38,409 nt of DNA from a virus. The stretch's first letter is position 1. Every line of letters starts with the position of its first letter. The notes under the pieces were generated by a model. That model did no database searches, was not told where the DNA came from, and saw only the letters and a list, made by a program, of their open reading frames with translations. This document shows positions 4,461 to 38,409 of this stretch, piece after piece. The position numbers and the translations under genes are program-made. The stretch is taken from IMG/VR virus record IMGVR_UViG_3300023174_000347, positions 1 to 38,409 of that record. One strand, given 5' to 3'.

Positions 4461-4690
4461 GAGAAGTTAGCGTAGGTCGTGCGGATACGAGTGCCGTTGA
4501 CAGACTGGATGGCAAGGGTTAGCTCTGCGATAGTATCACGAACTTCCCCAAGATTCGCCCTAGAAAAAGAGCGTCCCGCTATCGAATAGCTAGACCCAGC
4601 CACCGCAATCGCCTCAAGACAAGTCACATACTTATCGCGCAGAGAAGTTAGGGTGGCTAAGGGTAGCCCAATAAAATCACCCTTCGCCAT
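4457..4690 (-). CDS. gpW-like head-tail joining protein
   Basis: This small 77-residue protein lies between the large terminase and the portal, exactly where lambda W sits. It has two predicted helices around a short hairpin containing SYSIAGRSFSRANLGEVRD, which resembles the gpW layout. The start is the ATG at 4690: a perfect AGGAGG lies at 4697-4702, six bases upstream. An in-frame TTG two codons earlier can therefore be discounted. The gene overlaps the terminase end by 14 bases and couples to the portal through GTGA at 4457-4460. It probably binds under the portal after packaging. Confidence 0.6.
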   Translation of the reverse strand: MAKGDFIGLPLATLTSLRDKYVTCLEAIAVAGSSYSIAGRSFSRANLGEVRDTIAELTLAIQSVNGTRIRTTYANFS

Positions 4691-6464
4691 TCTCAACCTC
4701 CTGTGTCAAACTTGCGGGTGAAACCTTGAGCCGTCCGTGGAGTGCCGCACCCACAATGTTCATACATTCACAGTCCATTAAATGATTATGCTTTCCGACT
4801 TGCTTCCACACAAGTCTTTCCCTGCCAGTCATAGGGTTCTTCACCCTTACCTTTACCTCTGCTTCGAGATGCACCTTCCAAACATCGGGCGTATCTAGGG
4901 CGATAAAGCCCTCCTCTTTGAGAAGTTGGGAAAGGATGTCTTTGATGGATGGGTTCGACCATCTCCAAATCGGGCAGAGCTTCCACTTCCACCCTACCTT
5001 GGATTGAACTGCCTTACCGCTGAATGGGTCGCCATTTGCGATTCGAGCGTATGGCCTTTGCACCTTCTGCTCGTTCACGATCTCGGAGAAGCTGGTCTTG
5101 TCCGAACCGACCAACGCTACCCAGCCGTTCTTGCAACAATTCAAATATACATCTCTGGTTTGATCGCCCGAGTCAATTAGCACGCACTTATCCTCAACGC
5201 CAAATTCATCTTGCTTTGCCTTTATGTCGCCCCAAGTTTCTAGCCTGCCTGCCCACACGAGCCTTGGTTTTCCCTCTAAATCCCAAGCCCTAACTACACA
5301 CCAAGCGTGGAAGCCCCCCGCCTCTTGGATGTCGCAACTCATAATTAGCTTATCGCCCATCCGAACCTCCCCCATCTTGTAAGCACCGGGAACGATCTGC
5401 ATCTTTTCTGATTCGTGTTCCATCCACGGCTCGGCTAGGACTCGGTTCACAAAATCTTGTAGGCCGATAATCCCGCTGTGTTTATCTTGCAGGAACTTGA
5501 CCGCCAAGCTACCGAATGTTACCCACGGAGCATATAGGCCGTTGAGATGATACGAGCGTCTGGCTGGTTCGCCCTTGGGATTCGTTGCCCTCCACTCCCC
5601 CTCTCGTAGCATCTTGGTTTTCTGGCCGTCTTGAATCTTGCCCTTGCACCCCTCGCATTCGTAGTAGGTGGAGCTTTTAACTAGGGCGTAATCATAAACG
5701 CCATCTTCTATCTTGGCCGATTCATCCCACTTGACTTGTCCCCATATTAGTTTTTGTTTTAATCCACAATGGGGGCAAGGCACAAAATAGAAGCGCATAT
5801 CCCCCTTCTGCCACTCAGCCCAAATTATTGAGTCGGCAGTTGTCGGGGTGCTGGTTGCTATGATTAAATGATTGGGGTAGGTGCTGACTCGTGCCTCTGC
5901 TAACTGCACCGGATTGGCTTCCCTTCCCGAGCCTGCTTGCTCTGGGAACTTATCGACCTCATCCATGCAGAGCAAGGCAATCGAACGACTAGAAAGAGCC
6001 GAGGCACTTGTTCCCGCCCACCACACCGAGCATCGCTTAAAATGTTGCTCGAGGATTTTGATCTTGTCGGTGTTGTCGGGCTTTTCTTTGGCTAGGGCTG
6101 GGCAGTCGTCCACCATCGGAAGCCAGCGGGTTTCTGTAAATGATCGAGCTAGATGTTCCGAGGGCATCACCCACAAGACCGGACAAGGGCGTTCTGCGAT
6201 TCGATAGGCTAGGCCAGCGAGAATCGTTGTCGTCTTTGAGGTCTGTGCCCCCCAGACTAACACCACCCTCCGAATCGAGTCATCACCAAAAGCCTCTAGG
6301 GGTTCTCGGACATAGGGCGTGAGGTTGGTTGAATACGCACCGGGTATGTTTGTTACCCTTGCCGATAGAGTCAGATTTTTTTCTGCCCACTCTGGAATCG
6401 AAAGATGTTCCCTCGGCTTGAATAGTTCCCTAGTGAATCCGTTGATTTCCGAAAGCGTGCTCAT
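4677..6464 (-). CDS. terL: Terminase large subunit (GpA family)
   Basis: This 595-residue protein is the DNA packaging motor and endonuclease. A Walker A-type loop, WGAQTSKT, is at residues 71-78 and a Walker B strand, LLCMDE, at 164-169. A motif III-like segment IIATSTPT follows near 201-208. Two CxxC pairs (Cys230/233 and Cys270/273) form a probable zinc ribbon, as in other GpA-type terminases. The C-terminal RNase H-like nuclease has acidic positions in MSCDIQE (Asp377), LIDSGDQ (Asp430) and NHLMDCE (Asp563). The length is normal for the family. The ATG overlaps the HNH gene stop as ATGA (6461-6464), so the packaging proteins are translated in a chain. Confidence 0.93.
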   Translation of the reverse strand: MSTLSEINGFTRELFKPREHLSIPEWAEKNLTLSARVTNIPGAYSTNLTPYVREPLEAFGDDSIRRVVLVWGAQTSKTTTILAGLAYRIAERPCPVLWVMPSEHLARSFTETRWLPMVDDCPALAKEKPDNTDKIKILEQHFKRCSVWWAGTSASALSSRSIALLCMDEVDKFPEQAGSGREANPVQLAEARVSTYPNHLIIATSTPTTADSIIWAEWQKGDMRFYFVPCPHCGLKQKLIWGQVKWDESAKIEDGVYDYALVKSSTYYECEGCKGKIQDGQKTKMLREGEWRATNPKGEPARRSYHLNGLYAPWVTFGSLAVKFLQDKHSGIIGLQDFVNRVLAEPWMEHESEKMQIVPGAYKMGEVRMGDKLIMSCDIQEAGGFHAWCVVRAWDLEGKPRLVWAGRLETWGDIKAKQDEFGVEDKCVLIDSGDQTRDVYLNCCKNGWVALVGSDKTSFSEIVNEQKVQRPYARIANGDPFSGKAVQSKVGWKWKLCPIWRWSNPSIKDILSQLLKEEGFIALDTPDVWKVHLEAEVKVRVKNPMTGRERLVWKQVGKHNHLMDCECMNIVGAALHGRLKVSPASLTQEVENGEG

Positions 6465-7564: not shown

Positions 7565-8037
7565 CCATAAATGGGTTGCCCACAGGTCTGGCACTTTTCC
7601 CCACCCCCTAGTTCTTCTTTTTCTTTTTCTGGTGGAGCTTGCTCCATTAGTTCGGCCATCTCATCGATTCCGAATCCGGTAATATCAATATCAATTTCCC
7701 CTGCATCTAATTCTTCGAGAATGTCTTTTAGTTGGGGCATATCAAATTCACCACTCAACTTGTTTAACGCAAGGTTCGCCGCCTTCTCTTGTATCTCATC
7801 CAGCCACACCGCCCACACATCGACCTCCTCTTTGCCAAGTGCCTCATAGCATTTAAGTCTCTGGTGTCCTCCGATGATATTCCCGCTTTTAGCATTCCAA
7901 GTGATCGGCTGAAGGTTGCCCAATTCACTTAAGCTTTTGGTTAGCCTGCCCAAAGAATCGGAAGATATTTTCCTTGGGTTATATTTTGCGGGCACAAGCT
8001 CGTTTATTTTTTTTCTGATGAGTTTTGGGTATTGCAT
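7561..8037 (-). CDS. ParB/Srx-like domain protein A
   Basis: This 158-residue protein has a ParB N-terminal-type domain. The start IRKKINELVPAKYNPRKIS leads to a conserved SGNIIGGHQRLKCYEALG block (GGHQR at 56-60), the nucleotide-binding and nuclease box of the ParB/sulfiredoxin fold. It lacks the ParB DNA-binding and dimerisation domains, so it is not a partition protein. A CQTCGQ pair near the C-terminus may bind zinc. The ATG at 8037 follows GGGGAT and shares a base with the glycosyltransferase stop. Phage stand-alone ParB domains have been linked to CTP or ATP binding and nicking; the target here is unknown. Confidence 0.75.
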   Translation of the reverse strand: MQYPKLIRKKINELVPAKYNPRKISSDSLGRLTKSLSELGNLQPITWNAKSGNIIGGHQRLKCYEALGKEEVDVWAVWLDEIQEKAANLALNKLSGEFDMPQLKDILEELDAGEIDIDITGFGIDEMAELMEQAPPEKEKEELGGGEKCQTCGQPIYG

Positions 8038-8771
8038 TATATCCCCGCCCAAGGTGATTTGATGATTGGATTGAAATCAAAGCTTCTGCGGCTTTGGTAA
8101 TCTCTTTGTACAATATCTTTGCCCCATTTTTTCTGTAAAGACTCAAACTGCTCTCTCTCCCTGTCTAGGTTTCTATATGTTGCACAGCCTCCGGTTTGTT
8201 CTGCCTGTTTTACATCATAGTTGCAGAAATTAAATCTTAGGCATCCCCCATTAAACACTATGTGTTGCAGGGTTATATCATAGTCCTCTTTTAGTGGCAG
8301 GCTTTCGTCATAAAGGGTTTTATTGTTGAGGTGTGCATGGAATGGTCCGCCTATGAATTTTTGGGTGCTGAACGGAGTGTGTTCCCTATAAGCTCCCTTA
8401 TCGGTTACACAATTTAGCCCCCAAAAAGAAAACCCCCACTCCATACAAAGGTTTGTGCTGGATTCGCAGAACTCAATTAGCTCTTCGCTTTTGAATTTTA
8501 CTTTTTTCTGGTTCTCCCAGCGGTAAACCCCCTTGCAATCATCATCCATAAGCACGACACAATCTGCATCAAACAAGGTTTTCAAAATATAGTTTTTGAC
8601 CCTGCATACATTCCCTTGAACTTCGTCGGGTACTGTTAAGATGTCGTTGCCATTTTTCTTGTATTCTTCTGCCTCGCTTTCTCGCACCACAAGCTTTACG
8701 AACGGGTAGTTCTTTTGTGTGTCGCTTTTGCTCGGCCTTTTGTATGACGGGGCAAAGAATTTAACCTTCAT
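8037..8771 (-). CDS. TET-associated-type glycosyltransferase (TAGT/GREB1-like)
   Basis: This 244-residue protein starts MKVKFFAPSYKRPS and carries VVLMDDDCKGVYRWE with a DDD motif at residues 76-78, the metal and sugar-nucleotide site of a GT-A fold. The APSYKRP start, the VRESEAEEY segment and the DDD site resemble the TET/JBP-associated glycosyltransferases reported in phages and proposed to glycosylate modified DNA bases. It is sandwiched between two ParB-domain genes and overlaps the upstream one by 11 bases. No TET/JBP oxygenase or hydroxymethylase is seen in this genome, so the acceptor is open. Confidence 0.7.
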   Translation of the reverse strand: MKVKFFAPSYKRPSKSDTQKNYPFVKLVVRESEAEEYKKNGNDILTVPDEVQGNVCRVKNYILKTLFDADCVVLMDDDCKGVYRWENQKKVKFKSEELIEFCESSTNLCMEWGFSFWGLNCVTDKGAYREHTPFSTQKFIGGPFHAHLNNKTLYDESLPLKEDYDITLQHIVFNGGCLRFNFCNYDVKQAEQTGGCATYRNLDREREQFESLQKKWGKDIVQRDYQSRRSFDFNPIIKSPWAGI

Positions 8772-9402
8772 TTATGCTTTCTTTGATTTTCTTGATTGCC
8801 TTCAATCCGTCAATTACACGCCCCACCCCCTTGCTCCACGGCTTACCATTTGCCCTTTTTGAAAAGGTAGATTCAAGCCCGAAAATAGTTTCCGCTTGAA
8901 TCCAATCAATGTCCTTGGTGAATTTTAATACTATGTAGTTGCTTTCTCGGTCGAGTTCGGTTGAGAATTTCGTTTCCTCATTGCCCTCGTTTTCTTTTTC
9001 CAGCTCCTTAACTTCATCCAGTTCTTTTTGGGTAAATCCGATTTTCTCAATATCGAATCCCTCCTCTTTCAATGCATCTAGTTCGCTTATTAGAAGCTCA
9101 TCATCCCATCCTGCATTAAGCCCCAATTTATTATCCGCTATTACGTATGCTCGCACTTGTGCCTCTGTCAGATGTTCTAGGCTAATTGTCGGCACTTCCT
9201 CAATCCCCAGCTTCCTAGCGGCAAGAACTCTTCCGTGTCCTGCTATTATTGTATTGTTTTTGTCTACCAAGACTGGGTTTGTCCATCCGAACTCTCTAAT
9301 GCTTGCGGCGATCTGCAACACTTGTTCGTCCGAGTGTGTCCTGCTGTTTCGGGCATACGGAATTAGCTTGTTTATATGCTGTTGCCTTATGTTTTGGTTC
9401 AT
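8761..9402 (-). CDS. ParB/Srx-like domain protein B with extra C-terminal domain
   Basis: This 213-residue protein has a ParB-type N-terminal domain (INKLIPYARNSRTHS, then TIIAGHGRVLAARKLG with GHGR at 55-58, then ADNKLGLNAGWDDE) like those fused to phage DNA methylases. After an acidic linker around residues 125-150 there is a separate C-terminal domain with NYIVLKFTKDIDW and SKGVGRVIDGLKAIKK. It is clearly a different subfamily from protein A. An AAGGAAACCAGAAAGAAC leader lies upstream of the ATG at 9402. With the downstream glycosyltransferase and protein A it forms a three-gene cassette. Confidence 0.75.
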   Translation of the reverse strand: MNQNIRQQHINKLIPYARNSRTHSDEQVLQIAASIREFGWTNPVLVDKNNTIIAGHGRVLAARKLGIEEVPTISLEHLTEAQVRAYVIADNKLGLNAGWDDELLISELDALKEEGFDIEKIGFTQKELDEVKELEKENEGNEETKFSTELDRESNYIVLKFTKDIDWIQAETIFGLESTFSKRANGKPWSKGVGRVIDGLKAIKKIKESINEG

Positions 9403-14021: not shown

Positions 14022-14802
14022 CGGGTGTTCCTTTTCTTAACGACTCGGCCTCGAGGAGAATCTCTGCGATTATCTCGTTGCGGATAATATCGTTCTTGTA
14101 TGGCTTGCCGTCTGCTCCGGGCTTCAGGTCTTGCCTAGATAGCCACTCTAGGTAATCTAATCCCTTATCTCCAAGCATAGCAATCTGCCGAAGCGTTGAA
14201 CCCTTGTGCTTGCCAAACTTCAGCTCCATATCCCTTGGTTCACCAATACGAACGCCATTTAGCTTGGCTGTGATGTCTGCCAAATCTGCTTTGCTTATCT
14301 TGGCGGGTTCGGCCTTGGGTGCTTCCTCAAACTTCTCCGTGTTGATATCTTGGAAGCCCCCATAAGGAACTTCCTCGGCTGGTGTTGTCGATAGGCTCTT
14401 GTCGATTAGGACTACTATATGAGCAAAGGCAGAGCGACAAGCCCTACTGATTGCCCTAGTCTGGCACATCGCCCTCTTTGCATAGTTCGGACGCTTCTCC
14501 CACATCGGTTCGTCATCACCCAAGAACCCCTCGGCTTGAGATATCACTTGTCCGTTGTCCATCCTCTTAACCTCACCGATGCACCGATAGCCATCTTCGA
14601 GACGCTCAACATCTCTTGCACTTGCTACGCATCCGTGAGCCACTGCGATTGCTTGCCAGCCCTCAACTCGCACATAGTCCTTTTGGCCTATGCGTTGGCA
14701 GGTTTCTTTTACGATGGCACGACAAGCCCCCGCCACATCCGTTGCTTGTCGGATATGGTTGGAGACTCCGTTGCCGTTGTGTACTGCTAGTTCATTATTC
14801 AT
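14005..14802 (-). CDS. Possible ssDNA-binding/annealing protein with GKHKG domain and SSB-like tip
   Basis: This 265-residue protein has a conserved phage N-terminal domain (YVRVEGWQAIAVAHG, then KRAMCQTRAISRACRSAFAH), a type often found among recombination genes. A short domain with ELKFGKHKGSTLRQI (GKHKG at 197-201) and DYLEWLSRQ resembles DUF3820 and the exonuclease X C-terminal domain. The protein ends in DEIPF, very close to the DDDIPF tip by which bacterial SSB recruits replication proteins. It has a GGAAAGAAC ribosome site. No other SSB gene is seen, so this may fill the role. The annealing function is inferred. Confidence 0.5.
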   Translation of the reverse strand: MNNELAVHNGNGVSNHIRQATDVAGACRAIVKETCQRIGQKDYVRVEGWQAIAVAHGCVASARDVERLEDGYRCIGEVKRMDNGQVISQAEGFLGDDEPMWEKRPNYAKRAMCQTRAISRACRSAFAHIVVLIDKSLSTTPAEEVPYGGFQDINTEKFEEAPKAEPAKISKADLADITAKLNGVRIGEPRDMELKFGKHKGSTLRQIAMLGDKGLDYLEWLSRQDLKPGADGKPYKNDIIRNEIIAEILLEAESLRKGTPDEIPF

Positions 14803-30394: not shown

Positions 30395-32211
30395 TAATAG
30401 ATTGCGTATTTAGAGTTCAGATATGCCTCTACTTGCTGGCGTTCTGGGGTTGTGAGAACTCGGTCGTAGACAATCATTTCTGCTATGCTTGATGCCCCGC
30501 CAATACTTGTGTTATATGTGCCAGTATTTGAATTAACGGAACCAGTGCCAACAGATGCTCCATTTAAGTATAGTGACGCAGAAGATCCGTTGAATGTTGT
30601 TCCAATTACATAATTTGTATTGTTATTTGCGTCTGAACTTGAAACTATGGTGTCGGAGGGGTCGTTTTCCGATGTTTGTATGTAGGGTGCATTAGTGCTG
30701 GCATATCCCCTGCCAAATTCAAAAAGACCAAATTCAGACTCTTGGCTCAAAAGAATTCCATCATCTGAAGAAGCAAAATGAGCCACAGTAATGATTGTTC
30801 CAACAAATTGAACGTTATCCCATATTGTAGGCACACTCATATTTATATATGAACCAAAAATAACAAATGACTTTCCACCAACCAGACTATAGGTGGGGAC
30901 CGTCTCGGATTGTTGAGCTGCATTCCTCCCATTCCCACTCTGATCTGCCCAGCCAGTTACATTATCTGTATTTACTGTTGAATTTGTAACGCTTCCGCTA
31001 ATCGAGCCAGTTGGTTTTGATGAAGCTGTGCTTGTTGGCGTACCTACTGATCTTGCAGATGTTCCTACTGACGCACTTGGGGCTGGGGAATCACCATTCT
31101 CTATTATCCAATCTCTCAAATCATTTGAGAAATACTCTGTTCCTCCAGTAAACCACCCGGAATCATAATATATTATTCTTCCACCAGATGCAGAAAAGGA
31201 GTTTAACCCATCTAAAGAATCTGATCTTGTGTAAATTCCATTTACAGATGTTGTGCCAGCATTAGTAAGAGTTACAGAGCTTTCATAGGAGGTTGGCGTC
31301 CACGAACCAGAGTAGCCGACTGGGGCTGTCGCTATTAGAATTTCAGATGCAGTATCTTTAAGTTGATCTGCGTCAATATAAAATCCTCCTCCAACTCTTG
31401 TAAAATAATTGCCATTACCGTTATATGTTCCGTTTGCACCAGAATATACTCCAGTAAATCCAGTAATTACAATTTGAGCAATATACGAAGAGGCAGTCCA
31501 ATTTACTCCATTTGAAGAGGCAAATGAATAATCTGGCTCGCCAGTTGAGGAAAGTAAAAATTCTTCAGTATCCCAATAAATTGATTTTCCAGTTGGCCCA
31601 GTAAGGCTATATGTATTTACTCTTTCATTCACATAATCCCAAGTTGGTACGCTATCCGCTGTGTATGTTCCAGCAAAACTTGGATTGCTTGTGCCAGATA
31701 TTACAATCGTAGAGGCGTAGTTGTAGGAGAACTTACTTACGCCAGCATCAGCCTTGAGCCATAATGATAATCCGGATATATTTAATGGAGAAAATATCTT
31801 TGTCGCTGTTGCCGTGATGTCTAAAGTCATAGCCCTTGACCAAGTTCTGTTTTGGCTGATTACCGCTGGACTATCCCCAGTCACCTTTGCTACATAAAAA
31901 GTCATATTGGAATGACTGGTTAGGTAGCTAGCAAGGTCTGGGTCACGATAAAGTTGCTCTAGGATGTCGTAAAACTTCGCATCAAAGTCGGCTCTTGCGG
32001 TTGTATCTGCCCTAGCAACATAAGTAATTGTGGTTGGTGTTTTGAATACACCAGAAAAAGGCACAAGCTCCTCTGACCCAATCTGTGCTTGAACCGTGAC
32101 ACTTGGCATCGTCCTAGCTGTGCCTCTTTCGCTCGTAAAGAAGTTCACTCCAGTAACACCAGAAACAACATTAAGGAGGGCGTTCTCAACCTCCCTCTCT
32201 ATTGAGGCCAT
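30394..32211 (-). CDS. Tail terminator-like protein fused to LamG-like lectin
   Basis: This 605-residue protein has a terminator-like N-terminal domain (residues 1-138; paralogue of 29903-30394), then a LamG/concanavalin-type domain split in two: the first strand NISGLSLWLKADAGV at 144-158 and the rest from WADQSGNGRNAAQ at 421 to SSIAEMIVYDRVLTTPERQQ near the end. About 260 residues sit between, with three diverged repeats (each ends in a GGxxIYWD-like strand; see 172-215, 250-282, 315-350). The lectin probably binds glycans at the neck of the virion. Such a fusion is unusual. Confidence 0.65.
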   Translation of the reverse strand: MASIEREVENALLNVVSGVTGVNFFTSERGTARTMPSVTVQAQIGSEELVPFSGVFKTPTTITYVARADTTARADFDAKFYDILEQLYRDPDLASYLTSHSNMTFYVAKVTGDSPAVISQNRTWSRAMTLDITATATKIFSPLNISGLSLWLKADAGVSKFSYNYASTIVISGTSNPSFAGTYTADSVPTWDYVNERVNTYSLTGPTGKSIYWDTEEFLLSSTGEPDYSFASSNGVNWTASSYIAQIVITGFTGVYSGANGTYNGNGNYFTRVGGGFYIDADQLKDTASEILIATAPVGYSGSWTPTSYESSVTLTNAGTTSVNGIYTRSDSLDGLNSFSASGGRIIYYDSGWFTGGTEYFSNDLRDWIIENGDSPAPSASVGTSARSVGTPTSTASSKPTGSISGSVTNSTVNTDNVTGWADQSGNGRNAAQQSETVPTYSLVGGKSFVIFGSYINMSVPTIWDNVQFVGTIITVAHFASSDDGILLSQESEFGLFEFGRGYASTNAPYIQTSENDPSDTIVSSSDANNNTNYVIGTTFNGSSASLYLNGASVGTGSVNSNTGTYNTSIGGASSIAEMIVYDRVLTTPERQQVEAYLNSKYAIY

Positions 32212-32528
32212 TAGGTTGTAATTTCCGCAAGTTCGATGGTGTAGGAAAGGCCATCTGTGCTTTGCGAAAATCCTCCGATCATACGCTCCACCCCGCTAAC
32301 TGTGCAAAGAGAGCCGATAACTGGGGCAGAGATTCCAGAGGCCAAAACAACAAGGCTTTGGGTGACTCTAAAAACCTCCCCGCCTATTTCAAGTTCACTA
32401 GCGGTTGTTAGGTCTGTGACTGATGCGGAAACTGCGGAAGAGGCAAGCCCGGTGACTGTTTGAAACATATCCGCAATCATAAATTGCAGATCAGTTGAGA
32501 AGTAAGAGGTTTGGATTGTCCCCGCCAT
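32211..32528 (-). CDS. Head-tail connector or stopper candidate
   Basis: This 105-residue protein starts MAGTIQTSYFSTDLQFMIAD at 32528. It has a beta-rich C-terminus (EIGGEVFRVTQSLVVLASGI, then LCTVSGVERMIGGFSQS) that fits the short beta-barrel head closure proteins. It lies just before the tail terminator-like genes. A TTG start at 32576 would add 16 residues and overlap the previous gene; neither start has a clear ribosome site. Confidence 0.5.
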   Translation of the reverse strand: MAGTIQTSYFSTDLQFMIADMFQTVTGLASSAVSASVTDLTTASELEIGGEVFRVTQSLVVLASGISAPVIGSLCTVSGVERMIGGFSQSTDGLSYTIELAEITT

Positions 32529-32544
32529 AAACTCATTGCTTGTG

Positions 32545-33162
32545 TCAATCCCAAATAGGTCTAATAGATTCGTCAAACTTGACCATTGTTTTTGCTCCTA
32601 CGCCTCCGTGTGGGTAGGTAGGCAGATATTCGTATCTCGTGACGCAACTCGGCCACTCAATTCTTCCTTTCCCTCTATCTGCTTTTGTCGTATCGACCGA
32701 TCTGTTGTTATCCTCAATGATGAATTGGCAGGGTAAACTTGAGCCACTAACATAGTTGACCGCTTCGTAAAAATGTCCTTCGTCCTCTGCTCCATCCCCA
32801 AGAAAGCACCAGACTTTAGCCTTGCTCTGTTCTTCCTTTAGGCGATAGGCCACCCCTGCGGCGATTGCACAAGTGCCAGCCAGAACGCTAGAGGTGTAGA
32901 AGTTCAAACCCCTATCAAAGACAAACATCGAGCGTCCCTCTCGAATCATCTGCTCTAGCTTTTGGGGGCTACCCCCGGCGAGGAGATAATGATAGTGAGA
33001 ACGATGCCCAGAGAATATCCAATCGCCTTTCTTTATGCCTTTGAATATCTCAATAAGCTGATCTTCATTCCCTCCGCATAGATGAATCAGATAGGGAAGT
33101 TTGCCTTGCTCAAAAACTGCCTTTATTCGTAGCTCAAAATCAATTAGCTCTTGTTTGTTCAT
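32545..33162 (-). CDS. TPP-enzyme PP half (E1-alpha / transketolase-N-like)
   Basis: This 205-residue protein has the thiamine-diphosphate motif CFLGDGAEDEGHFYEAVNYV with GDG at 122-124 and EDNN at 150-153 as the magnesium site, plus SGHRSHYHYLLAGGS (53-59), the histidine loop of E1-alpha. It resembles the E1-alpha subunit of 2-oxoacid dehydrogenases, but is shorter (usual about 330 or more). It overlaps the radical SAM gene by ATGA. It probably pairs with the 34247-34774 protein to make one active site. Confidence 0.8.
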   Translation of the reverse strand: MNKQELIDFELRIKAVFEQGKLPYLIHLCGGNEDQLIEIFKGIKKGDWIFSGHRSHYHYLLAGGSPQKLEQMIREGRSMFVFDRGLNFYTSSVLAGTCAIAAGVAYRLKEEQSKAKVWCFLGDGAEDEGHFYEAVNYVSGSSLPCQFIIEDNNRSVDTTKADRGKGRIEWPSCVTRYEYLPTYPHGGVGAKTMVKFDESIRPIWD

Positions 33163-34250
33163 ACAAAAGAATCGTAGCTGTCGGTGGTCAGCTTTTCGTA
33201 TAGCTCCACCTTGTTATGGTTTGCACACTCGTGATTACAGACTTTGCTTGGGTTAAATTCCTTATGCCATTTCCTTGCCTCTTCCGAGAACCAAGCATCG
33301 GAGAACTTTCTGTTCTGCATCCCTGCAACCAATCCATGTTCAGAATATGCGGTATTGTGGCAAGCGTAAATGTTTAGATCAGCCCCTACCACGCACACGG
33401 CTTGAGCGTATAGGCAACGATGAAAGGGGCGAACTGGTGATTTGCTAGGGCTGGTCAGATCGTAGGTTGTGTTAATGCTGAATGAATCGTCGCAGAAGTC
33501 TTGGCACTCGGCTAGTTGTTCTCTCACCCTTTGGGCAATAGGCTCGTGGTAGTTCTTGAATCCCTCGATATAAACTGGGCTAAATCGAATGTTGCCAACG
33601 CCAGAATCCTTTAGCCTTTTAGCAAATGGAACAATGCCCTCGTGGTTTTCCCTAGTGATAATGAAATTGATTCCCAAGTCACAAGTGCTTTCTTTGGTTG
33701 TGCTAAAGGTAGTTATGTTTTTGAGGATATTATCAAAAGATGCCTCGGGTACATTTCGGCTTTCACTCATCTGCTTTGCGCTCGTGTAATCCATTGAAAT
33801 CCTCACCCATTTTGCCTTGCCTAAAGCCACCGCCCTCTCGCCAGACAAGAGTTGGCCGTTGGTAATAATTGAGAGATCAAGGCCGCACTCGATTGTTCTA
33901 AACATTATTTGAGCGATGTCCTTGTGAAGTAGGGGCTCGCCGCCGCCTGAGAAAGTTACTGCCTTTGTTCCTATAAGGCCAAGGTCGGTCACAAGCTCAA
34001 GGGCTTTTCCCGTTGGCATAACATCCTTCTCGACCATCGTTTTATGCATCCCCGCCTGTAAATGTTTTTCCACCCTATCCTTCGGCCTAAGTGTTCCATC
34101 TGAATACACGCACCAGTAGCAAGCGTGATTACATTTGTTAATTGGTTTGATACGGACATAAATTGGCGGGGTAAGCACATCATCCTTGAAAGACAATATC
34201 TTTTCTGGATACGAGAAAATCTTATAGTCGCTATATTTGTTCTGTTTCAC
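33159..34250 (-). CDS. Radical SAM protein with SPASM-like C-terminus
   Basis: This 363-residue protein has CNHACYWC (Cys40, Cys44, Cys47), the CxxxCxxC cluster loop, followed by TFSGGGEPLLH (101-106), a GGEP loop that binds SAM. The C-terminal region has further cysteines (279, 286, 297, 338, 342) that can hold auxiliary Fe-S clusters, as in SPASM proteins. Substrate unknown; SPASM proteins modify peptides, sugars or alcohols. Encoded between the two TPP-enzyme halves. Confidence 0.85.
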   Translation of the reverse strand: MKQNKYSDYKIFSYPEKILSFKDDVLTPPIYVRIKPINKCNHACYWCVYSDGTLRPKDRVEKHLQAGMHKTMVEKDVMPTGKALELVTDLGLIGTKAVTFSGGGEPLLHKDIAQIMFRTIECGLDLSIITNGQLLSGERAVALGKAKWVRISMDYTSAKQMSESRNVPEASFDNILKNITTFSTTKESTCDLGINFIITRENHEGIVPFAKRLKDSGVGNIRFSPVYIEGFKNYHEPIAQRVREQLAECQDFCDDSFSINTTYDLTSPSKSPVRPFHRCLYAQAVCVVGADLNIYACHNTAYSEHGLVAGMQNRKFSDAWFSEEARKWHKEFNPSKVCNHECANHNKVELYEKLTTDSYDSFV

Positions 34251-34774
34251 ATTAAGTCCTTGTATTCAACAACCATAGTGCTTTCGCCTCGATCTAAACA
34301 AGCCTTGGCGTGGTCGTAGATAGGGGCGAACTCTGTTTCCCTAGTCACTTGCCGAACTGGAAATCCAACCATTCTCGCTATGGATTGAGAGAAGTCTTGG
34401 GTGTGGGTCGGGCCAGTAAAAAGGGGCTTGGCTCGGTTTCCTACTACAACTCGCAATATCATCGCAGGGGAAAATTCGCCCCGGCTAATTGCCTTTGCTT
34501 GTGAAAGATGATTCACAATGGCATCGAGGGCATTGAGAATAAAATCCATTCGCTCGATAAACACAACTGGTTTTAGACCAGCCAAAGATATTCCAATAGC
34601 CATCCCTACCATTAGATTCTCAGCTACCGGAGTTTCAATAAGTTGTTCCTCTTTGATTTCTTTTAGTGTGCCGAGTGCTTGTCCCCCTATCTTTACGCCA
34701 TAACCAACAAACCGAATCTTTGGGTCGTAAGCGAGCGACTGCATTGCGCTAGTGATTGCGTACTTGTAGCTCAT
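34247..34774 (-). CDS. TPP-enzyme Pyr half (E1-beta / transketolase-Pyr-like)
   Basis: This 175-residue protein is the pyrimidine-binding domain of a transketolase/E1-beta type enzyme: ETPVAENLMVGMAIGISLAG with the conserved Glu52 that activates thiamine, then ERMDFILNALDAIVNHLSQA and TGPTHTQDFS, like E1-beta. It ends after the Pyr domain, without the C-terminal transketolase domain. It overlaps both neighbours by ATGA. Confidence 0.8.
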   Translation of the reverse strand: MSYKYAITSAMQSLAYDPKIRFVGYGVKIGGQALGTLKEIKEEQLIETPVAENLMVGMAIGISLAGLKPVVFIERMDFILNALDAIVNHLSQAKAISRGEFSPAMILRVVVGNRAKPLFTGPTHTQDFSQSIARMVGFPVRQVTRETEFAPIYDHAKACLDRGESTMVVEYKDLM

Positions 34775-35502
34775 ACCAGTAGTTTAATAGCCTCCCCAAT
34801 ACTCCGAACCGTCTTTCCTCGTTTTGTCAGAATAACTTCCTCGGAATCTAGGCAAAGGATATGCAGGGCTTCTTGATTGTGGATGTTCAGACAAGGCCAG
34901 CTTACGCCAGTTGAGTTGCCAACGATTATCTTTGTCTTGGTAGATACTGCCCCAATCCAAGAAACATCTTTGCCTCTTGAATCATCACAGAGGCCAGTTG
35001 GCTTTGTAGAAAGAACAGAATTCCCCTTGCTTTGTAGCCATTTGATTAGTTCCACATACATCATTTCGTTGTGGCCACTAAATTGACCAGACAAACCCGG
35101 TGAGTTAATGACAACCACATCATAGGTAGGGGTGGGTTGGAGTAGGGCGGGGTAATCAAAAAGCAAATCTTCCCTTGATCTGATAGGCGAAAGAAAGCCC
35201 ATCTTGTGACTGAGCGACTTGAACCAATCGAGGTGAAACTTGGCAAAATCTAGTTTGTCTTGATGCCCATACCACTCTTGCCCTCTCCACGAATCAAGGC
35301 TATCGGCTGGTTGTCCTTCGGCCTCAATAAAAAGCCTATCCTCCAATCCTTCTCGAAGGGCAATAATCTCTTCGCCCTTGCAGAGTTGCGGGTTGAAGTA
35401 GTGGGTGATCTTGGCATTGGGATTCTCCGCTAACAATCTCCTTAGAAAGTTAAGCTGAACCAAATTATCCCCAAGGCGAAGATGGTTGTGGGTGTGAATC
35501 AT
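34771..35502 (-). CDS. Glycosyltransferase-like protein (GT-B, heptosyltransferase-like)
   Basis: This 243-residue protein begins MIHTHNHLRLGDNLVQLNFL, a start like ADP-heptose transferases (GT9). It has YDVVVINSPGLSGQFSGHNE and a C-terminal WIGAVSTKTKIIVGNSTGVS, VSWPCLNIH, the donor-binding end of GT-B enzymes. Probably transfers a sugar. The ATG overlaps the previous gene as ATGA. Confidence 0.6.
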   Translation of the reverse strand: MIHTHNHLRLGDNLVQLNFLRRLLAENPNAKITHYFNPQLCKGEEIIALREGLEDRLFIEAEGQPADSLDSWRGQEWYGHQDKLDFAKFHLDWFKSLSHKMGFLSPIRSREDLLFDYPALLQPTPTYDVVVINSPGLSGQFSGHNEMMYVELIKWLQSKGNSVLSTKPTGLCDDSRGKDVSWIGAVSTKTKIIVGNSTGVSWPCLNIHNQEALHILCLDSEEVILTKRGKTVRSIGEAIKLLV

Positions 35503-35750
35503 TTCTTCGAAACTAATTCTTTGAGGGCTTTTACGATCACATATTGAATAACTGCTTCCTTGTCGTGCTTTAACGCAATCATCCCGCACTCATACAAATC
35601 TTTCTCTGCTTTTTCGTCATAGGTAATATCAACCTTCACATACTTGGTGGGGTCGGGGCGAGACTTCCCGAATTTAATCATACCAAGCCCCTTGGTATCT
35701 TCCCCCTTTTTTGCTTTCCTACATCCAATGATTTGCTTTGCGTTTTTCAT
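35499..35750 (-). CDS. Small basic protein in the glycan island
   Basis: This 83-residue protein starts MKNAKQIIGCRKAKKGEDTK at 35750, with AAGG upstream. It contains GMIKFGKSRPDPTKYVKVDI and ends helical (AVIQYVIVKALKELVSKK). It overlaps the double-glycosyltransferase gene by 32 bases. No family is recognised. Confidence 0.55.
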   Translation of the reverse strand: MKNAKQIIGCRKAKKGEDTKGLGMIKFGKSRPDPTKYVKVDITYDEKAEKDLYECGMIALKHDKEAVIQYVIVKALKELVSKK

Positions 35751-37371
35751 AGATTGCCTTCCCCTTTTGGTAGTGTTCGGGTTTGTTGTGGTTTTTAAGT
35801 AGGTCATCGGGGTTGCCTCCGGTAAACATCGGATTCTCGTGTTTGAATTGGATATGTCTAGCCTCAACTATCACCCCATCCTCATAAGCTCGATCAGTCA
35901 CCTCGTTGTCTGAATATATGCCATCGCTAACTTGATACTCTGGGCAGAACATCTCCCCCTGTTTCTTGAGCCTAGATTGCGTCATAATAGCCATACAGAG
36001 GAGTTTGTCTGTGCGTAGGCCATCTGACACTGCCAATACTTTCTCCTCCGCTGTATCCCCCATAGCGGTCGAAATTAGGGCATCCCAATGGCGGGGTGGT
36101 GTCCAGTCATCGCTCATTTGAATGATGATATCCCCTTTGGCTAACTTTGCCCCTGCATTCCAAGCGTTGACGATGCCTCCGGGATTCACTCGGATTGCTT
36201 GGTGGGGGGTGTAGTCAACGGCCTCATCGTGATCTACCATAAACAACCATTCAACCTCTAGTGGCTTTTGGGCTAGGCAAAGCCATTGCCAGCGTCTTTG
36301 CCAAGCGATCTGTGGCCTCCCCTTGGTTGCGTGGATAATGCTGATCTTGGGGGCGGGTCGCATCTTCCTAATCTTTTCAGCTTCGCCAGTCTCGCCTACG
36401 CACACCGAGGCAGTCTCGTATAAATCCATCGCTTGCCAGTTGTAAATAGCTTCTACCAAATTCCAGTAGTGGGCTTTGGGACGATGCAAAGCCATACAAG
36501 CTCGAACCGCACCATAAGCCTTTATCCAATTCCCCTTACCCGACCAATGATTAGCGATATAGAAATAAGCCTCTCGGCGGTCTGGTTGCAGAGATATGGC
36601 TTGCCCAAGGTAAGAAAGCCTCTCATTTTCTGGAACAATCCTCCCCAAGTTGCAAAGTACATCATATCGAAGCGTGTCCTCTAGGTCTGGAAAAGACAAC
36701 GCCCGCATACTGGAATCAATGCAGTTTTCATTCTGACCAGATAGGAAATACTCTTGGGCTTGGTAGTAGAGTGAGTTGGCGGCTGGGGCAAGAGTGTCGG
36801 CCAAGATGTTAAAGTTCCTCTCTGCACTTTTGGACTTATAGCCGTGAGGTTTATGGATTCTGAAAATCTTATCTAGGCCAATCGTCTTGTTTGGCTCTTT
36901 GCAAACCAGCATTTCGTGAACTCGGTTCTTCCAACCACAAGTGCCTTTCTTTGAGATTTCTTCTCGAAGGGGAATAAGTCCGGCGTTGTCCACATTGTAT
37001 TTTAACGCCACAAGGTGAGCGTCTTTCTCAACGGCAAGGTCAATAGCCTCCTCGACAACCTTCGCCCCATCCTCGGACATCACATCGTCAGCATCGACCC
37101 ATAAACACCATTCATTTGAACACGCACCAAGAGCCGTGTTCCTTGCAGTTGCAAAATCGTCTATATGAGGCCAATCAGTTCTTTGATTCTGGTAGTGAAC
37201 GATTTTCGCACCCAGACCTTTGGCAATTTCTTCTGTTTTGTCTGGGACAAGATTCCCCCTAGCGATGCAGACAACAAGCTCCGCTGAAATGGGTTTGAAA
37301 CTTTCCAAACATCGGCCAATGTATTCTTCCTCATTGCCTGCAATTAAATAGGTGGAGATAGGATATTTCAA
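35719..37371 (-). CDS. Double GT2 glycosyltransferase with TPR-like middle
   Basis: This 550-residue protein has an N-terminal GT2 domain (STYLIAGNEEEYIGRCLESF, with the DxD site WVDADD at 91-96), a TPR-like helical middle (about 190-320), and a second GT2 domain (KISIIHATKGRPQIAW, then WLFMVDHDEAVDY with DHD at 380-382 and QMSDDWTPP at 418-426). Two GT2 domains in one protein are typical of enzymes that build repeating or branched glycans. It starts with TTG at 37371 without a visible ribosome site and is the first gene after the capsid terminator. Confidence 0.75.
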   Translation of the reverse strand: MKYPISTYLIAGNEEEYIGRCLESFKPISAELVVCIARGNLVPDKTEEIAKGLGAKIVHYQNQRTDWPHIDDFATARNTALGACSNEWCLWVDADDVMSEDGAKVVEEAIDLAVEKDAHLVALKYNVDNAGLIPLREEISKKGTCGWKNRVHEMLVCKEPNKTIGLDKIFRIHKPHGYKSKSAERNFNILADTLAPAANSLYYQAQEYFLSGQNENCIDSSMRALSFPDLEDTLRYDVLCNLGRIVPENERLSYLGQAISLQPDRREAYFYIANHWSGKGNWIKAYGAVRACMALHRPKAHYWNLVEAIYNWQAMDLYETASVCVGETGEAEKIRKMRPAPKISIIHATKGRPQIAWQRRWQWLCLAQKPLEVEWLFMVDHDEAVDYTPHQAIRVNPGGIVNAWNAGAKLAKGDIIIQMSDDWTPPRHWDALISTAMGDTAEEKVLAVSDGLRTDKLLCMAIMTQSRLKKQGEMFCPEYQVSDGIYSDNEVTDRAYEDGVIVEARHIQFKHENPMFTGGNPDDLLKNHNKPEHYQKGKAIYEKRKANHWM

Positions 37372-37410: not shown

Positions 37411-37448
37411 CAAAAAAGAAAAGGGGGGAGAGCTTTCGCCCTCCCCCC
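37411..37448 (-). terminator. Rho-independent terminator after the capsid gene
   Basis: The stem GGGGGGAGRGC (arms 37423-37433 and 37438-37448), with one mismatch and a GAAA loop when read on the minus strand, is followed by TTTTCTTTTTT. It should stop most transcription leaving the capsid gene, so the glycan island may need its own promoter or read-through. Confidence 0.85.
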
Positions 37449-37474: not shown

Positions 37475-38409
37475 TTAGGCGAAGTTGGTGGTGATACGAA
37501 CGGCCGCATTCGGGTCAATAACGACCTCATCGGTGTTCATACGCACCCGCAATACTTGGCTACGGCGAGCTTCGTCACGATAGCTTTCAGAGACGAAACC
37601 ACCAGCCGAGTCACCCGACCAGACCAAGGTGCGTCCGATTCCACCGGCGGTGAACTCACCACCAGAAATCTGACCTACGATGATCTTGGTGTCTGGAACA
37701 ACGAACGAACCAGAATAGGTTTTGTTCTTGCCAGCGGTGTTGTAAGCCGCACGGCCTACGAGCAAGTTCTGGATTCCTAGAGCCGCCGCAATTTCAGCTT
37801 CGCTCAACAACCTAGCACCAGTATTCGAGATAACTCCGAAGAACTGATTCTGGAGGAGGGTCGAGCGTCTGATCAGCTCAAACACATTGGCAGACATCGC
37901 AACGCAATTAGCTTCGTAACCATATTGGGCAAGAGCCAGCTTGGCGGTCGCCACATCACGAGCTACATCGACTGTTGCCACTAACGCTTGGGTGTAGGCA
38001 ACCGCACGAGTTTGATCGGCGATGGTGAAGGGAGTCGTTGCATTCCAGAGAAGATCGGATACCCGCTTCTCGTGGGAGAGCTTCAACTGACGGAGCAAAA
38101 ACTTTGCAGTTTCGGCCTCGTAGGCGAAGAAACGATTTAAGTCCTTGGCCGCATCGTCCGGAATTAGCTCTTCCAGTCCTACCTCGTTCGTTGCGTAGTT
38201 TGCCGAGCTAAAGGAACGAATGCCACGAGAATAGCTCGAGCCGCTTTCACGAGCCAGAGCATTGTTGGTCAAGAGTTCCCCGCCAGCTAACTGAACTTTG
38301 AGGTATGTTCCAGCCTTTGCATCTACATTCTGCAAGGGGAGGAGTTGCGAACCGATCAAACCGATGTCGGCTTGAGGAGCTTCGATCAACGCTTGGCTGA
38401 TGTCTGCCC
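37475..38409 (-). CDS. Major capsid protein (HK97 fold), continues at 158
   Basis: This is the main body of the 321-residue capsid protein; its first codons lie at 158 down to 1, with bases 1-127 repeated here. It has an N-terminal part with IEAPQADIGLIGSQLLPLQN, a central LIPDDAAKDLNRFFAYEAET and helix KFLLRQLKLSHEKRVSDLLW, and a C-terminal part with VWSGDSAGGFVSESYRDEAR. The size and the alternation of a long helix with beta strands fit an HK97-fold capsid protein without a delta domain, as scaffold is made separately. Confidence 0.85.
   Translation of the reverse strand, partial: ADISQALIEAPQADIGLIGSQLLPLQNVDAKAGTYLKVQLAGGELLTNNALARESGSSYSRGIRSFSSANYATNEVGLEELIPDDAAKDLNRFFAYEAETAKFLLRQLKLSHEKRVSDLLWNATTPFTIADQTRAVAYTQALVATVDVARDVATAKLALAQYGYEANCVAMSANVFELIRRSTLLQNQFFGVISNTGARLLSEAEIAAALGIQNLLVGRAAYNTAGKNKTYSGSFVVPDTKIIVGQISGGEFTAGGIGRTLVWSGDSAGGFVSESYRDEARRSQVLRVRMNTDEVVIDPNAAVRITTNFA
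38283..38409. repeat. Terminal direct repeat, right copy
   Basis: This is the same 127 bases as positions 1-127, inside the major capsid gene. It marks the closing overlap of a circular assembly. Confidence 0.9.

Follow-up and report, generated by a model that had tools for sequence, protein, structure and literature searches.

Results

A six-gene run between the capsid terminator and the tail genes

The window, i.e., the whole 38,409-nucleotide stretch of viral DNA analyzed here (IMG/VR record IMGVR_UViG_3300023174_000347), carries a run of six open reading frames on its minus strand between 32545 and 37371, bordered by the capsid terminator on one side and by neck and tail genes on the other. 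All features below lie on this strand. In gene order, the run encodes a double GT2 glycosyltransferase, a small protein, a GT9-like GT-B glycosyltransferase (GTB), one half (Pyr) of a TPP enzyme, a radical SAM enzyme of the twitch type (rSAM), and the other, TPP-diphosphate-binding half (PP). All six reading frames were found where a preliminary description of the sequence had placed them. The four 4-base overlaps that chain the last five genes likewise lie where described, but only those at 35499-35502, 34771-34774, and 33159-33162 read ATGA as had been claimed for all four, while the one at 34247-34250 is GTGA and contains a GTG start.

On the upstream side, the major capsid protein gene (37475-38407; phrog_1005, E 3.5e-26) is followed at its 3′ end by a real-looking intrinsic terminator-like hairpin (37423-37448) with an 11-bp stem, nine G-C pairs, and a T-rich tail. 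The first and last 127 bp of the window are identical, and the 5′ end of the capsid gene wraps over this terminal repeat to an ATG at window position 158, with the N-terminus read at 1-158. A comparison with 50,697 phage records gave no match to the capsid protein. On the opposite side, a neck/head-tail-like gene (32211-32576) belongs to the backbone and forms the far border, which is conserved in capsid lineage A.

Core glycosyltransferase and small backbone gene

The first gene (35719-37371; PF00535, Glycos_transf_2, 9e-14) encodes an N-terminal GT-A domain of the GT2 type, helical repeats, and a second GT-A-like domain. The DADD metal/sugar-nucleotide motif of the first domain (37084-37095) is invariant at D93, D95, and D96 in 16 homologues, as is the SDD motif of the second (S420, D421, D422; 36106-36114). 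While GmaR is the nearest PDB entry by sequence, the model (pLDDT 86) is closest in Foldseek to the peptide glycosyltransferases SunS and ThuS (E 4e-16). Whichever of the two capsid lineages they belong to, relatives with room at the locus carry the gene directly behind the 3′ end of the capsid gene; it belongs to the core and not to the cassette described below. A glycosyltransferase gene tied to structural genes, a feature of phage virion glycosylation loci, is found here in two capsid lineages.

The small gene (35499-35750) encodes 84 residues without a significant Pfam family. Its start is most likely the ATG at 35750, which is preceded by a purine-rich stretch. The gene (cluster C7) is kept in lineage-A relatives holding other cassettes and was not found in lineage-B phages that carry the TPP cassette, and is thus part of the capsid-lineage backbone rather than of the cassette.

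An exchangeable four-gene cassette

The third gene (34771-35502) is the first of the cassette. Its start is placed at the ATG at 35502, within the overlap with the small gene, because homology begins there. The 243-residue product has no significant Pfam family and was assigned from its structure model (pLDDT 82) as a GT9/heptosyltransferase-like GT-B protein. The top PDB matches in Foldseek, WaaF (3.7e-4), TibC (6.5e-4), and WaaC, range from E 4e-4 to 4e-3 at a TM of about 0.5, which suggests at most a remote relative of the GT9 family.

Recurrence of the gene order had been set beforehand as the test of the proposed island. The order GT2-GTB-Pyr-rSAM-PP, together with the same overlaps, indeed recurs in about 50 IMG/VR contigs, with overlaps of four bases between GT2 and GTB at 52 loci, GTB and Pyr at 54, Pyr and rSAM at 50, and rSAM and PP at 52. 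Moreover, dN/dS between the window and the related locus L002 indicates purifying selection on rSAM (0.022), PP (0.029), Pyr (0.105), and GTB (0.123). The genes are chained as proposed, but a fixed six-gene unit was rejected: the small gene and GT2 are backbone, and only GTB-Pyr-rSAM-PP travels, as an exchangeable cassette next to the core GT2 gene.

This cassette sits in a slot that extends as far as the neck gene, and the content of the slot is swappable between phages whose capsid proteins are up to 99% identical. In close relatives it is filled by cassettes of Methyltransf_21/23/24 and GT-like genes, and at least five alternative tailoring cassettes occur under nearly identical capsids. 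In a third phage lineage (lineage C, L324-L338), the order PP-Pyr-rSAM-GT follows RecE/RecT genes and not a capsid gene; consequently, linkage to virion genes is not obligatory.

The split TPP enzyme

The Pyr half (cassette gene 2, 34247-34774, 175 residues) matches Transket_pyr (PF02779, 7e-8) and the PP half (cassette gene 4, 32545-33162, 205 residues) matches E1_dh (PF00676, 4e-17). Both align with one fused family, phrog_34187, the PP half with residues 13-196 (4e-68) and the Pyr half with residues 237-403 (2e-44), and fused PP-Pyr proteins exist in L053, L060, L062, and the cyanophages S-SM2 and P-TIM68. As the preliminary description had proposed, the two halves thus belong together as parts of one enzyme.

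The features of PDH-E1/transketolase-like enzymes are present, namely a PP domain with a GDG-(x)n-N motif and a Pyr domain with a catalytic glutamate. In the PP half, GDG (32791-32799) and EDN (32707-32715) of the TPP-binding motif are invariant or nearly so in the alignment, while in the Pyr half the catalytic residue, Glu52 (TPxxEN, 34619-34621), is invariant in nine homologues. The enzyme is minimal: the Pyr protein ends at 175 residues, Pfam gives nothing beyond Transket_pyr, and a TK_C domain is absent, as it is at the end of the fused homologues. Neither an E2/lipoyl acceptor nor an E3 is encoded alongside. In a scan of 395 genomes from the phylum of locus L082, L082 itself was the sole close member, and the others gave ordinary E1-alpha-like matches.

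The radical SAM enzyme

Cassette gene 3 (33159-34250, 363 residues; PF04055, 6e-15) combines a radical SAM domain and its CxxxCxxC cluster motif (34110-34133; C40, C44, and C47 invariant) with a C-terminal twitch-type domain. Conservation of these cysteines across relatives, together with that of GDG, EDN, and E52, bears out the claim of intact catalytic residues. The Pfam assignments also agree with the earlier family calls for GT2, Pyr, PP, and radical SAM. The cysteines, however, do not bear out a SPASM C-terminus. The SPASM motif, CX9-15GX4C-gap-CX2CX5CX3C-gap-C, comprises seven cysteines and two auxiliary clusters (PMC6231123), whereas the C-terminal part of rSAM has only four invariant cysteines, C279-x17-C297 and C338-x3-C342 (33225-33416). 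Full SPASM membership was therefore rejected. The four cysteines, the number that defines a twitch domain, are predicted, by comparison with published enzymes (PMC9012708, PMC6231123), to fully ligate a single auxiliary Fe-S cluster in a BtrN-like manner.

Sequence matches in the PDB (10 at 1e-3) are weak and include MoaA, BlsE, and DesII; BtrN is not among the 10. Weak matches in NCBIfam include peptide maturases. In this radical SAM subfamily, sequence is a poor guide to function (PMC6231123).

Coupling of rSAM to TPP enzymes

When loci were fetched by rSAM alone, a TPP gene lay nearby in 80 of 80, in at least six gene orders. These 80 are the top-ranking loci out of 175 with rSAM and share at least 49% identity, so that the count does not extend to more distant relatives. 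Among the distinct loci examined that had room, all 71 carried a TPP gene (66 E1-like, 5 transketolase-type). Three separate TPP enzymes have been recruited beside rSAM: split E1-like, fused E1-like, and transketolase-type. Thus, L232, L237, L243, and L249 share the same GTB and an rSAM 93-95% identical, but encode Transketolase_N and Transket_pyr instead of the split halves, and this arrangement also occurs beside the rSAM of the divergent L321. Further, L291 and L309 join an rSAM of 75% identity to a fused TPP enzyme that is nested in an alcohol-dehydrogenase-linked clade.

Viewed from the TPP side, E1-like loci carry rSAM only (56), a zinc alcohol dehydrogenase (Zn-ADH) only (12), neither (3), or both (0); where this rSAM is missing, Zn-ADH mostly stands in its stead, and at three cellular TPP loci another radical SAM/SPASM protein does. 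The fused relatives neighbor Zn-ADH, SDR, PfkB, epimerase, and nucleotidyltransferase genes, i.e., nucleotide-sugar clusters. In the window, no NDP-sugar synthesis gene was recognized. Taken together, the coupling of rSAM to TPP enzymes is well supported.

Discussion

A model for capsid-side glycan tailoring

That three TPP enzymes joined the same rSAM family and that Zn-ADH replaces rSAM elsewhere leads us to predict conversion of a hydroxyl to a ketone followed by carbon branching. The core double-domain GT2 enzyme would attach the first sugar to a protein, in all likelihood one of the virion, and the exchangeable cassette would supply the outer sugar chemistry. Via its predicted BtrN-like auxiliary cluster, rSAM may oxidize a hydroxyl of a sugar to a ketone by removing two electrons. 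A TPP carbanion would then add a two-carbon (ketol or acetyl) unit to the carbonyl, so that the sugar becomes carbon-branched, a reaction also proposed for AviB1/AviB2. The GT9-like enzyme would then place the branched sugar, or a sugar that is branched after attachment. Two-carbon transfer to a ketosugar by PP/Pyr is suggested by genomic context; ketone formation, two-carbon addition, the order of steps, and the virion target are all what we infer from the genes. We give an even chance to the locus being a glycan-decoration slot behind the major capsid gene, with oxidation by rSAM, two-carbon addition by the TPP enzyme, and attachment by glycosyltransferases, likely to the virion.

Of the earlier proposal of an island that makes and attaches an unusual sugar, the glycan context stands as by far the best reading, given GT2, the GT9-like fold, the methyltransferase and GT slot-mates, and the nucleotide-sugar clusters. 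A virion target is favored because, in two capsid lineages, GT2 immediately follows the capsid gene and shares the late structural block with the slot. The same kind of sugar might instead be placed on a host surface polysaccharide, excluding other phages or altering the surface. Fused cyanophage relatives in clusters read as outer-polysaccharide or O-antigen clusters, jumbo-phage copies away from recognized capsid genes, and the lineage-C genes behind RecE/RecT speak for this alternative, which we nevertheless hold to be unlikely, since, apart from the structural-block position, the cassette proteins of the window lack a convincing transmembrane segment (19-residue hydropathy peaks at 1.9, in Pyr) and neither a flippase nor a polymerase was recognized as a partner.

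Other rivals dispense with this sugar chemistry or move it elsewhere. Many twitch/SPASM enzymes act on peptides, and rSAM could accordingly be a peptide or protein maturase acting on a virion side chain, with the TPP enzyme serving that chemistry; the weak NCBIfam matches and the resemblance of GT2 to the peptide-acting SunS are consistent with this. However, the weak PDB matches include the sugar/nucleoside enzymes BlsE and DesII besides MoaA, the remaining neighbors encode GTs or methyltransferases or belong to sugar clusters, and Zn-ADH takes the place of rSAM beside the TPP enzyme at 12 related loci, which makes a maturase improbable. DNA hypermodification, in which a glycosylated modified base would be elaborated by rSAM and the TPP enzyme, appears slightly more improbable still. 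Radical SAM enzymes participate in some DNA hypermodifications, and the window encodes a TET-associated glycosyltransferase (TAGT)-like protein (8037-8771; PF20691, 4e-8) beside a ParB_N protein. Yet TAGT occurs in 0 of 20 other phage records, including eleven of lineage B and three of lineage C with rSAM/TPP genes, a thymidylate-synthase-type base hydroxymethylase (PF00303) occurs in 0 of 21 records, and a C5 DNA methylase (PF00145) was not found in the window; Tet_JBP gave no match, but its control matched nowhere either. Finally, the cyanophage annotation "transketolase central region" might suggest that these are auxiliary metabolic genes serving the carbon metabolism of the host, with pyruvate dehydrogenase or transketolase activity. 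This role was rejected on gene context and retains hardly any likelihood: TK_C, E2, and E3 are lacking, the genes are chained to GT, rSAM, or ADH genes, and methyltransferase and GT cassettes fill the slot in close relatives.

Beyond the locus itself, a fixed two-step rSAM-dehydrogenase/TPP pair, a partnership new to the literature, may make branched sugars and be swapped with methyltransferase cassettes under an unchanged capsid, so that phages vary the outer sugar of their virions. This would amount to chemical serotype switching, a reading in which we place somewhat less than even confidence. Should the predicted pathway hold, branched sugars could be made by a route that is new, and the slot would offer a natural experiment in what virion glycans do. 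To our knowledge, few systems of phage virion glycosylation are known, with simple or O-methylated sugars. One cassette of the exchangeable capsid-side slot pairs radical SAM with TPP chemistry, and in the literature searched we found no description of radical SAM and transketolase/TPP chemistry paired in phage glycosylation.

Comparison with known systems

The cyanophage "transketolase central region-containing protein" of S-SM2 and P-TIM68 belongs to the same PP-Pyr family (phrog_34187) and also sits in a sugar cluster, but it is fused, lies beside a zinc alcohol dehydrogenase without rSAM, and is part of large nucleotide-sugar clusters. The outer-polysaccharide clusters of cyanophages and jumbo phages (PMC7824862) similarly contain GT and sugar-modifying genes that are polymorphic between related phages, while radical SAM/TPP enzymes are unmentioned in that paper and the clusters do not occupy a capsid-side slot. 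Mycobacteriophage genes for three GTs and an O-methyltransferase modify capsid and tail tube, as summarized in PMC11600133 citing Freeman et al. 2023. Several GTs and a sugar-tailoring enzyme are common to both sets, and the slot-mate cassettes here likewise combine a methyltransferase with GT-like genes; in contrast, the tailoring part is exchangeable here, TPP and radical SAM enzymes replace methylation in this phage, and the virion glycan is a predicted one.

BtrN is a twitch radical SAM dehydrogenase of 2-deoxy-scyllo-inosamine, a sugar-like alcohol (PMC9012708); the phage rSAM shares CxxxCxxC and four C-terminal cysteines for one predicted auxiliary cluster, but its PDB sequence search gave no significant match to BtrN, and its partner is a TPP enzyme. 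AviB1/AviB2 of avilamycin and Pau11/Pau12 of paulomycin are split PDH-E1-like pairs with a proposed role in two-carbon branching of ketosugars, possibly after attachment (PMC4425429, PMC4753412). Compared by description, they resemble the phage enzyme as split E1-alpha/E1-beta-like pairs within a sugar-tailoring gene set, whereas the pair described here is phage-encoded, minimal (175 and 205 residues, no TK_C), chained to rSAM, and fused in relatives.

A probable tailoring cassette between the capsid and neck genes

The first 127 of the 38,409 bases recur exactly at the other end (1-127 and 38283-38409). The sequence therefore most likely represents an entire genome of ~38.3 kb, circularly permuted and cut within the capsid gene. 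All named genes lie on the minus strand, among them those for the terminase large subunit (4677-6464), the portal protein (1677-4460), and the major capsid protein (phrog_1005; 37475-38407, with its ATG at 158 across the terminal repeat). On its 3' side, the capsid gene is followed by a strong terminator-like hairpin (37448-37423), the double glycosyltransferase GT2, a small gene, the genes GTB-Pyr-rSAM-PP, and a neck-like gene beyond PP (32211-32576). The four-base overlaps of the preliminary description are all in place, but one reads GTGA rather than ATGA. The small gene (35499-35750) encodes a protein of the window's capsid lineage (lineage A) that co-occurs with several cassette types and for which no family match was found.

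Judged by sequence, PP and Pyr are parts of one enzyme without a TK_C domain, since both halves match a single family, phrog_34187 (405 residues; PP at 13-196, Pyr at 237-403), and a fused homologue has as its PDB relatives the E1-alpha and E1-beta subunits of pyruvate and branched-chain dehydrogenases. Individually, PP matches E1_dh (4e-17) and Pyr matches Transket_pyr (7e-8) in Pfam. The radical SAM enzyme (Radical_SAM, 6e-15) contains C40, C44, and C47, and four further cysteines are invariant in the C-terminal part of the alignment (C279-x17-C297 and C338-x3-C342). This pattern is consistent with a twitch domain that holds a single four-Cys cluster, the arrangement of BtrN (PMC9012708, PMC6231123). 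The seven-cysteine SPASM motif (PMC6231123) is ruled out by the cysteine pattern. Sequence relatives of rSAM in the PDB include MoaA, BlsE, and DesII; BtrN is absent from them. In a 199-kb phage contig (L054:7145-9268), an in-frame intein (Hint_2, 1.7e-7; Intein_splicing, 1.4e-5) interrupts the radical SAM gene and separates the second cysteine of the CxxxCxxC motif from the third, and the cluster is therefore presumably bound only after the intein is spliced out.

GT2 matches Glycos_transf_2 (9e-14) and is closest in sequence to the flagellin glycosyltransferase GmaR, while its predicted model (mean pLDDT 86) is nearest to the peptide S-glycosyltransferases SunS and ThuS. No sequence family was found for the GT-B protein, whose predicted model (mean pLDDT 82) is nearest to the heptosyltransferases WaaF, WaaC, and TibC.

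The radical SAM enzyme is constantly paired with a TPP enzyme in the loci examined

Scanning IMG/VR with the PP half yielded 74 loci (a few contigs are listed twice), most of which display the order GT2-GTB-Pyr-rSAM-PP, with four-base overlaps at GT2/GTB in 52, GTB/Pyr in 54, Pyr/rSAM in 50, and rSAM/PP in 52. The homologues are thus adjacent in most loci; scattered genes that never adjoin each other, which would have refuted the preliminary description, are not what the scan shows. In L055 and L066, 281 bp and 159 bp of extra sequence, respectively, separate the otherwise overlapping rSAM and PP genes. Between the window and L002, its nearest module relative, dN/dS is 0.022 for rSAM, 0.029 for PP, 0.105 for Pyr, and 0.123 for GTB.

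A scan by the rSAM alignment alone found a TPP gene nearby in 80/80 of the best 80 of 175 loci. The genes are arranged in six or more ways (Pyr-rSAM-PP, PP-Pyr-rSAM, PP-GTB-Pyr-rSAM, rSAM-fused, GTB-rSAM-fused, and GTB-TKN-TKC-(MT)-rSAM). All 71 distinct viral rSAM loci with room carry one, E1-like in 66 and transketolase-type in 5. In L232, L237, L243, and L249, a transketolase-type pair (Transketolase_N, 4e-12; Transket_pyr, 2e-22) occupies the same slot beside the same GTB and an rSAM of 93-95% identity, and has been exchanged for the E1-like pair. Such a pair stands beside rSAM again in the divergent L321 (rSAM 60%, TKN 50%). L291 and L309 combine an rSAM of 75% identity with a fused TPP enzyme that falls, with strong support, within a fused, alcohol dehydrogenase-linked clade of the tree, whose well-supported branches require at least two changes of rSAM label. 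Consequently, a single rSAM family has acquired TPP partners on three separate occasions, a different enzyme each time. Genes that stay adjacent while their order and the partner vary are stronger evidence for joint function than a single inherited operon, and rSAM and the TPP enzyme very probably serve one shared pathway. In the viral contigs L232, L237, L243, and L249, the transketolase-type enzyme is a minimal split one of 213 + 151 aa (L237:13700-14341 and 14338-14793).

Fused TPP relatives without rSAM are located in nucleotide-sugar clusters of phage and cellular origin, with a zinc alcohol dehydrogenase upstream and an SDR or PfkB kinase downstream. Across 74 distinct loci with room, counts that are weighted by the mode of retrieval and include related, non-independent loci, the partner is rSAM in 56, the zinc alcohol dehydrogenase in 12, another radical SAM/SPASM protein in 3, neither in 3, and both in 0. 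This zero is informative despite weighting and kinship, and as the two never occur together, they are suggested to serve the same kind of step, alcohol oxidation. The three other radical SAM/SPASM partners are cellular, in L081, in L082 (Desulfobacterales), and in L084 (Nanoarchaeota). The partnership has a counterpart in cells at L082:6626-10935 and L084:8696-10880, where radical SAM/SPASM genes, two or three in number, adjoin the PP/Pyr genes.

An exchangeable slot behind the capsid gene

Slot relatives were collected by capsid protein alone, for lineage A and for lineage B (L018-type, phrog_283), whose capsid protein is not matched by that of the window in tblastn. On contigs with enough room, GT2 directly follows the capsid gene in both lineages, and a variable cassette fills the interval to the neck gene. 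The 49 full slots of lineage B hold GTB-Pyr-rSAM-PP (25), a methyltransferase set C11-C0 (9) or C10-C0 (8), GTB-transketolase pair-methyltransferase-rSAM (4), or C16-C8-C0 (3; C-numbers denote slot protein clusters). Lineage A slots mostly carry methyltransferase/GT-like sets; among those seen, only the window and L002 have the TPP cassette. L113, whose capsid protein is 99% identical, carries C1-C2-C0. Capsid proteins of lineage B are up to 99% identical across different cassettes and hardly more divergent between cassette types (mean identity 0.924) than within them (0.932). Pfam names among the slot-mates are Methyltransf_24/TylF-like, FkbM (Methyltransf_21), and Methyltransf_23; no Pfam match was found for C0, C1, and C2. 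The slot is quite likely to have a glycan function. The larger finding is twofold: the capsid gene is followed by a slot in which tailoring cassettes are exchanged, and rSAM and TPP enzymes form a constant partnership that has arisen more than once.

Probable target and proposed chemistry

A virion protein is, on balance, the probable substrate, because in two lineages the locus comes after the capsid gene, GT2 resembles peptide glycosyltransferases, and there is a precedent in mycobacteriophages, whose capsids and tail tubes are glycosylated with glycosyltransferase and O-methyltransferase genes (PMC11600133). In ~36-kb phages of lineage C (L324-L338, e.g., L330), PP-Pyr-rSAM precedes a 265-aa Anp1-like glycosyltransferase after the RecE/RecT recombination genes, and in large phages the set is found at other genome places; the target may thus differ or not be the virion. 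The module could alternatively act in DNA modification, as the window encodes a TET-associated glycosyltransferase (TAGT)-like protein (PF20691; 8037-8771), whose gene adjoins a ParB_N-domain gene (8761-9402). Against this alternative, TAGT was not found in 20 related phage records, nor were thymidylate synthase-type hydroxymethylases in other module phages, nor C5-methylases in most of these or in the window. The search for TET (Tet_JBP) gave no match in the window, its positive control being silent as well.

By analogy with BtrN, AviB1/AviB2, and Pau11/Pau12, rSAM would form a ketone, the TPP enzyme would then add a two-carbon unit, and the GT9-like and GT2 enzymes would attach sugars. The earlier proposal of TPP-dependent ketol transfer and a radical step in making an unusual sugar is reasonable; ketone formation followed by a two-carbon branch stays tentative, with an even chance or somewhat less. 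No description of a radical SAM-TPP pairing was found in the literature searched, while phage glycan decoration itself is already known. BtrN, a twitch radical SAM enzyme, forms a ketone by oxidising a hydroxyl group of a cyclitol (PMC9012708). For AviB1/AviB2 and Pau11/Pau12, which like PP/Pyr are split E1-like pairs, the proposed reaction is addition of a two-carbon unit to an already attached 4-ketosugar (PMC4425429; PMC4753412).
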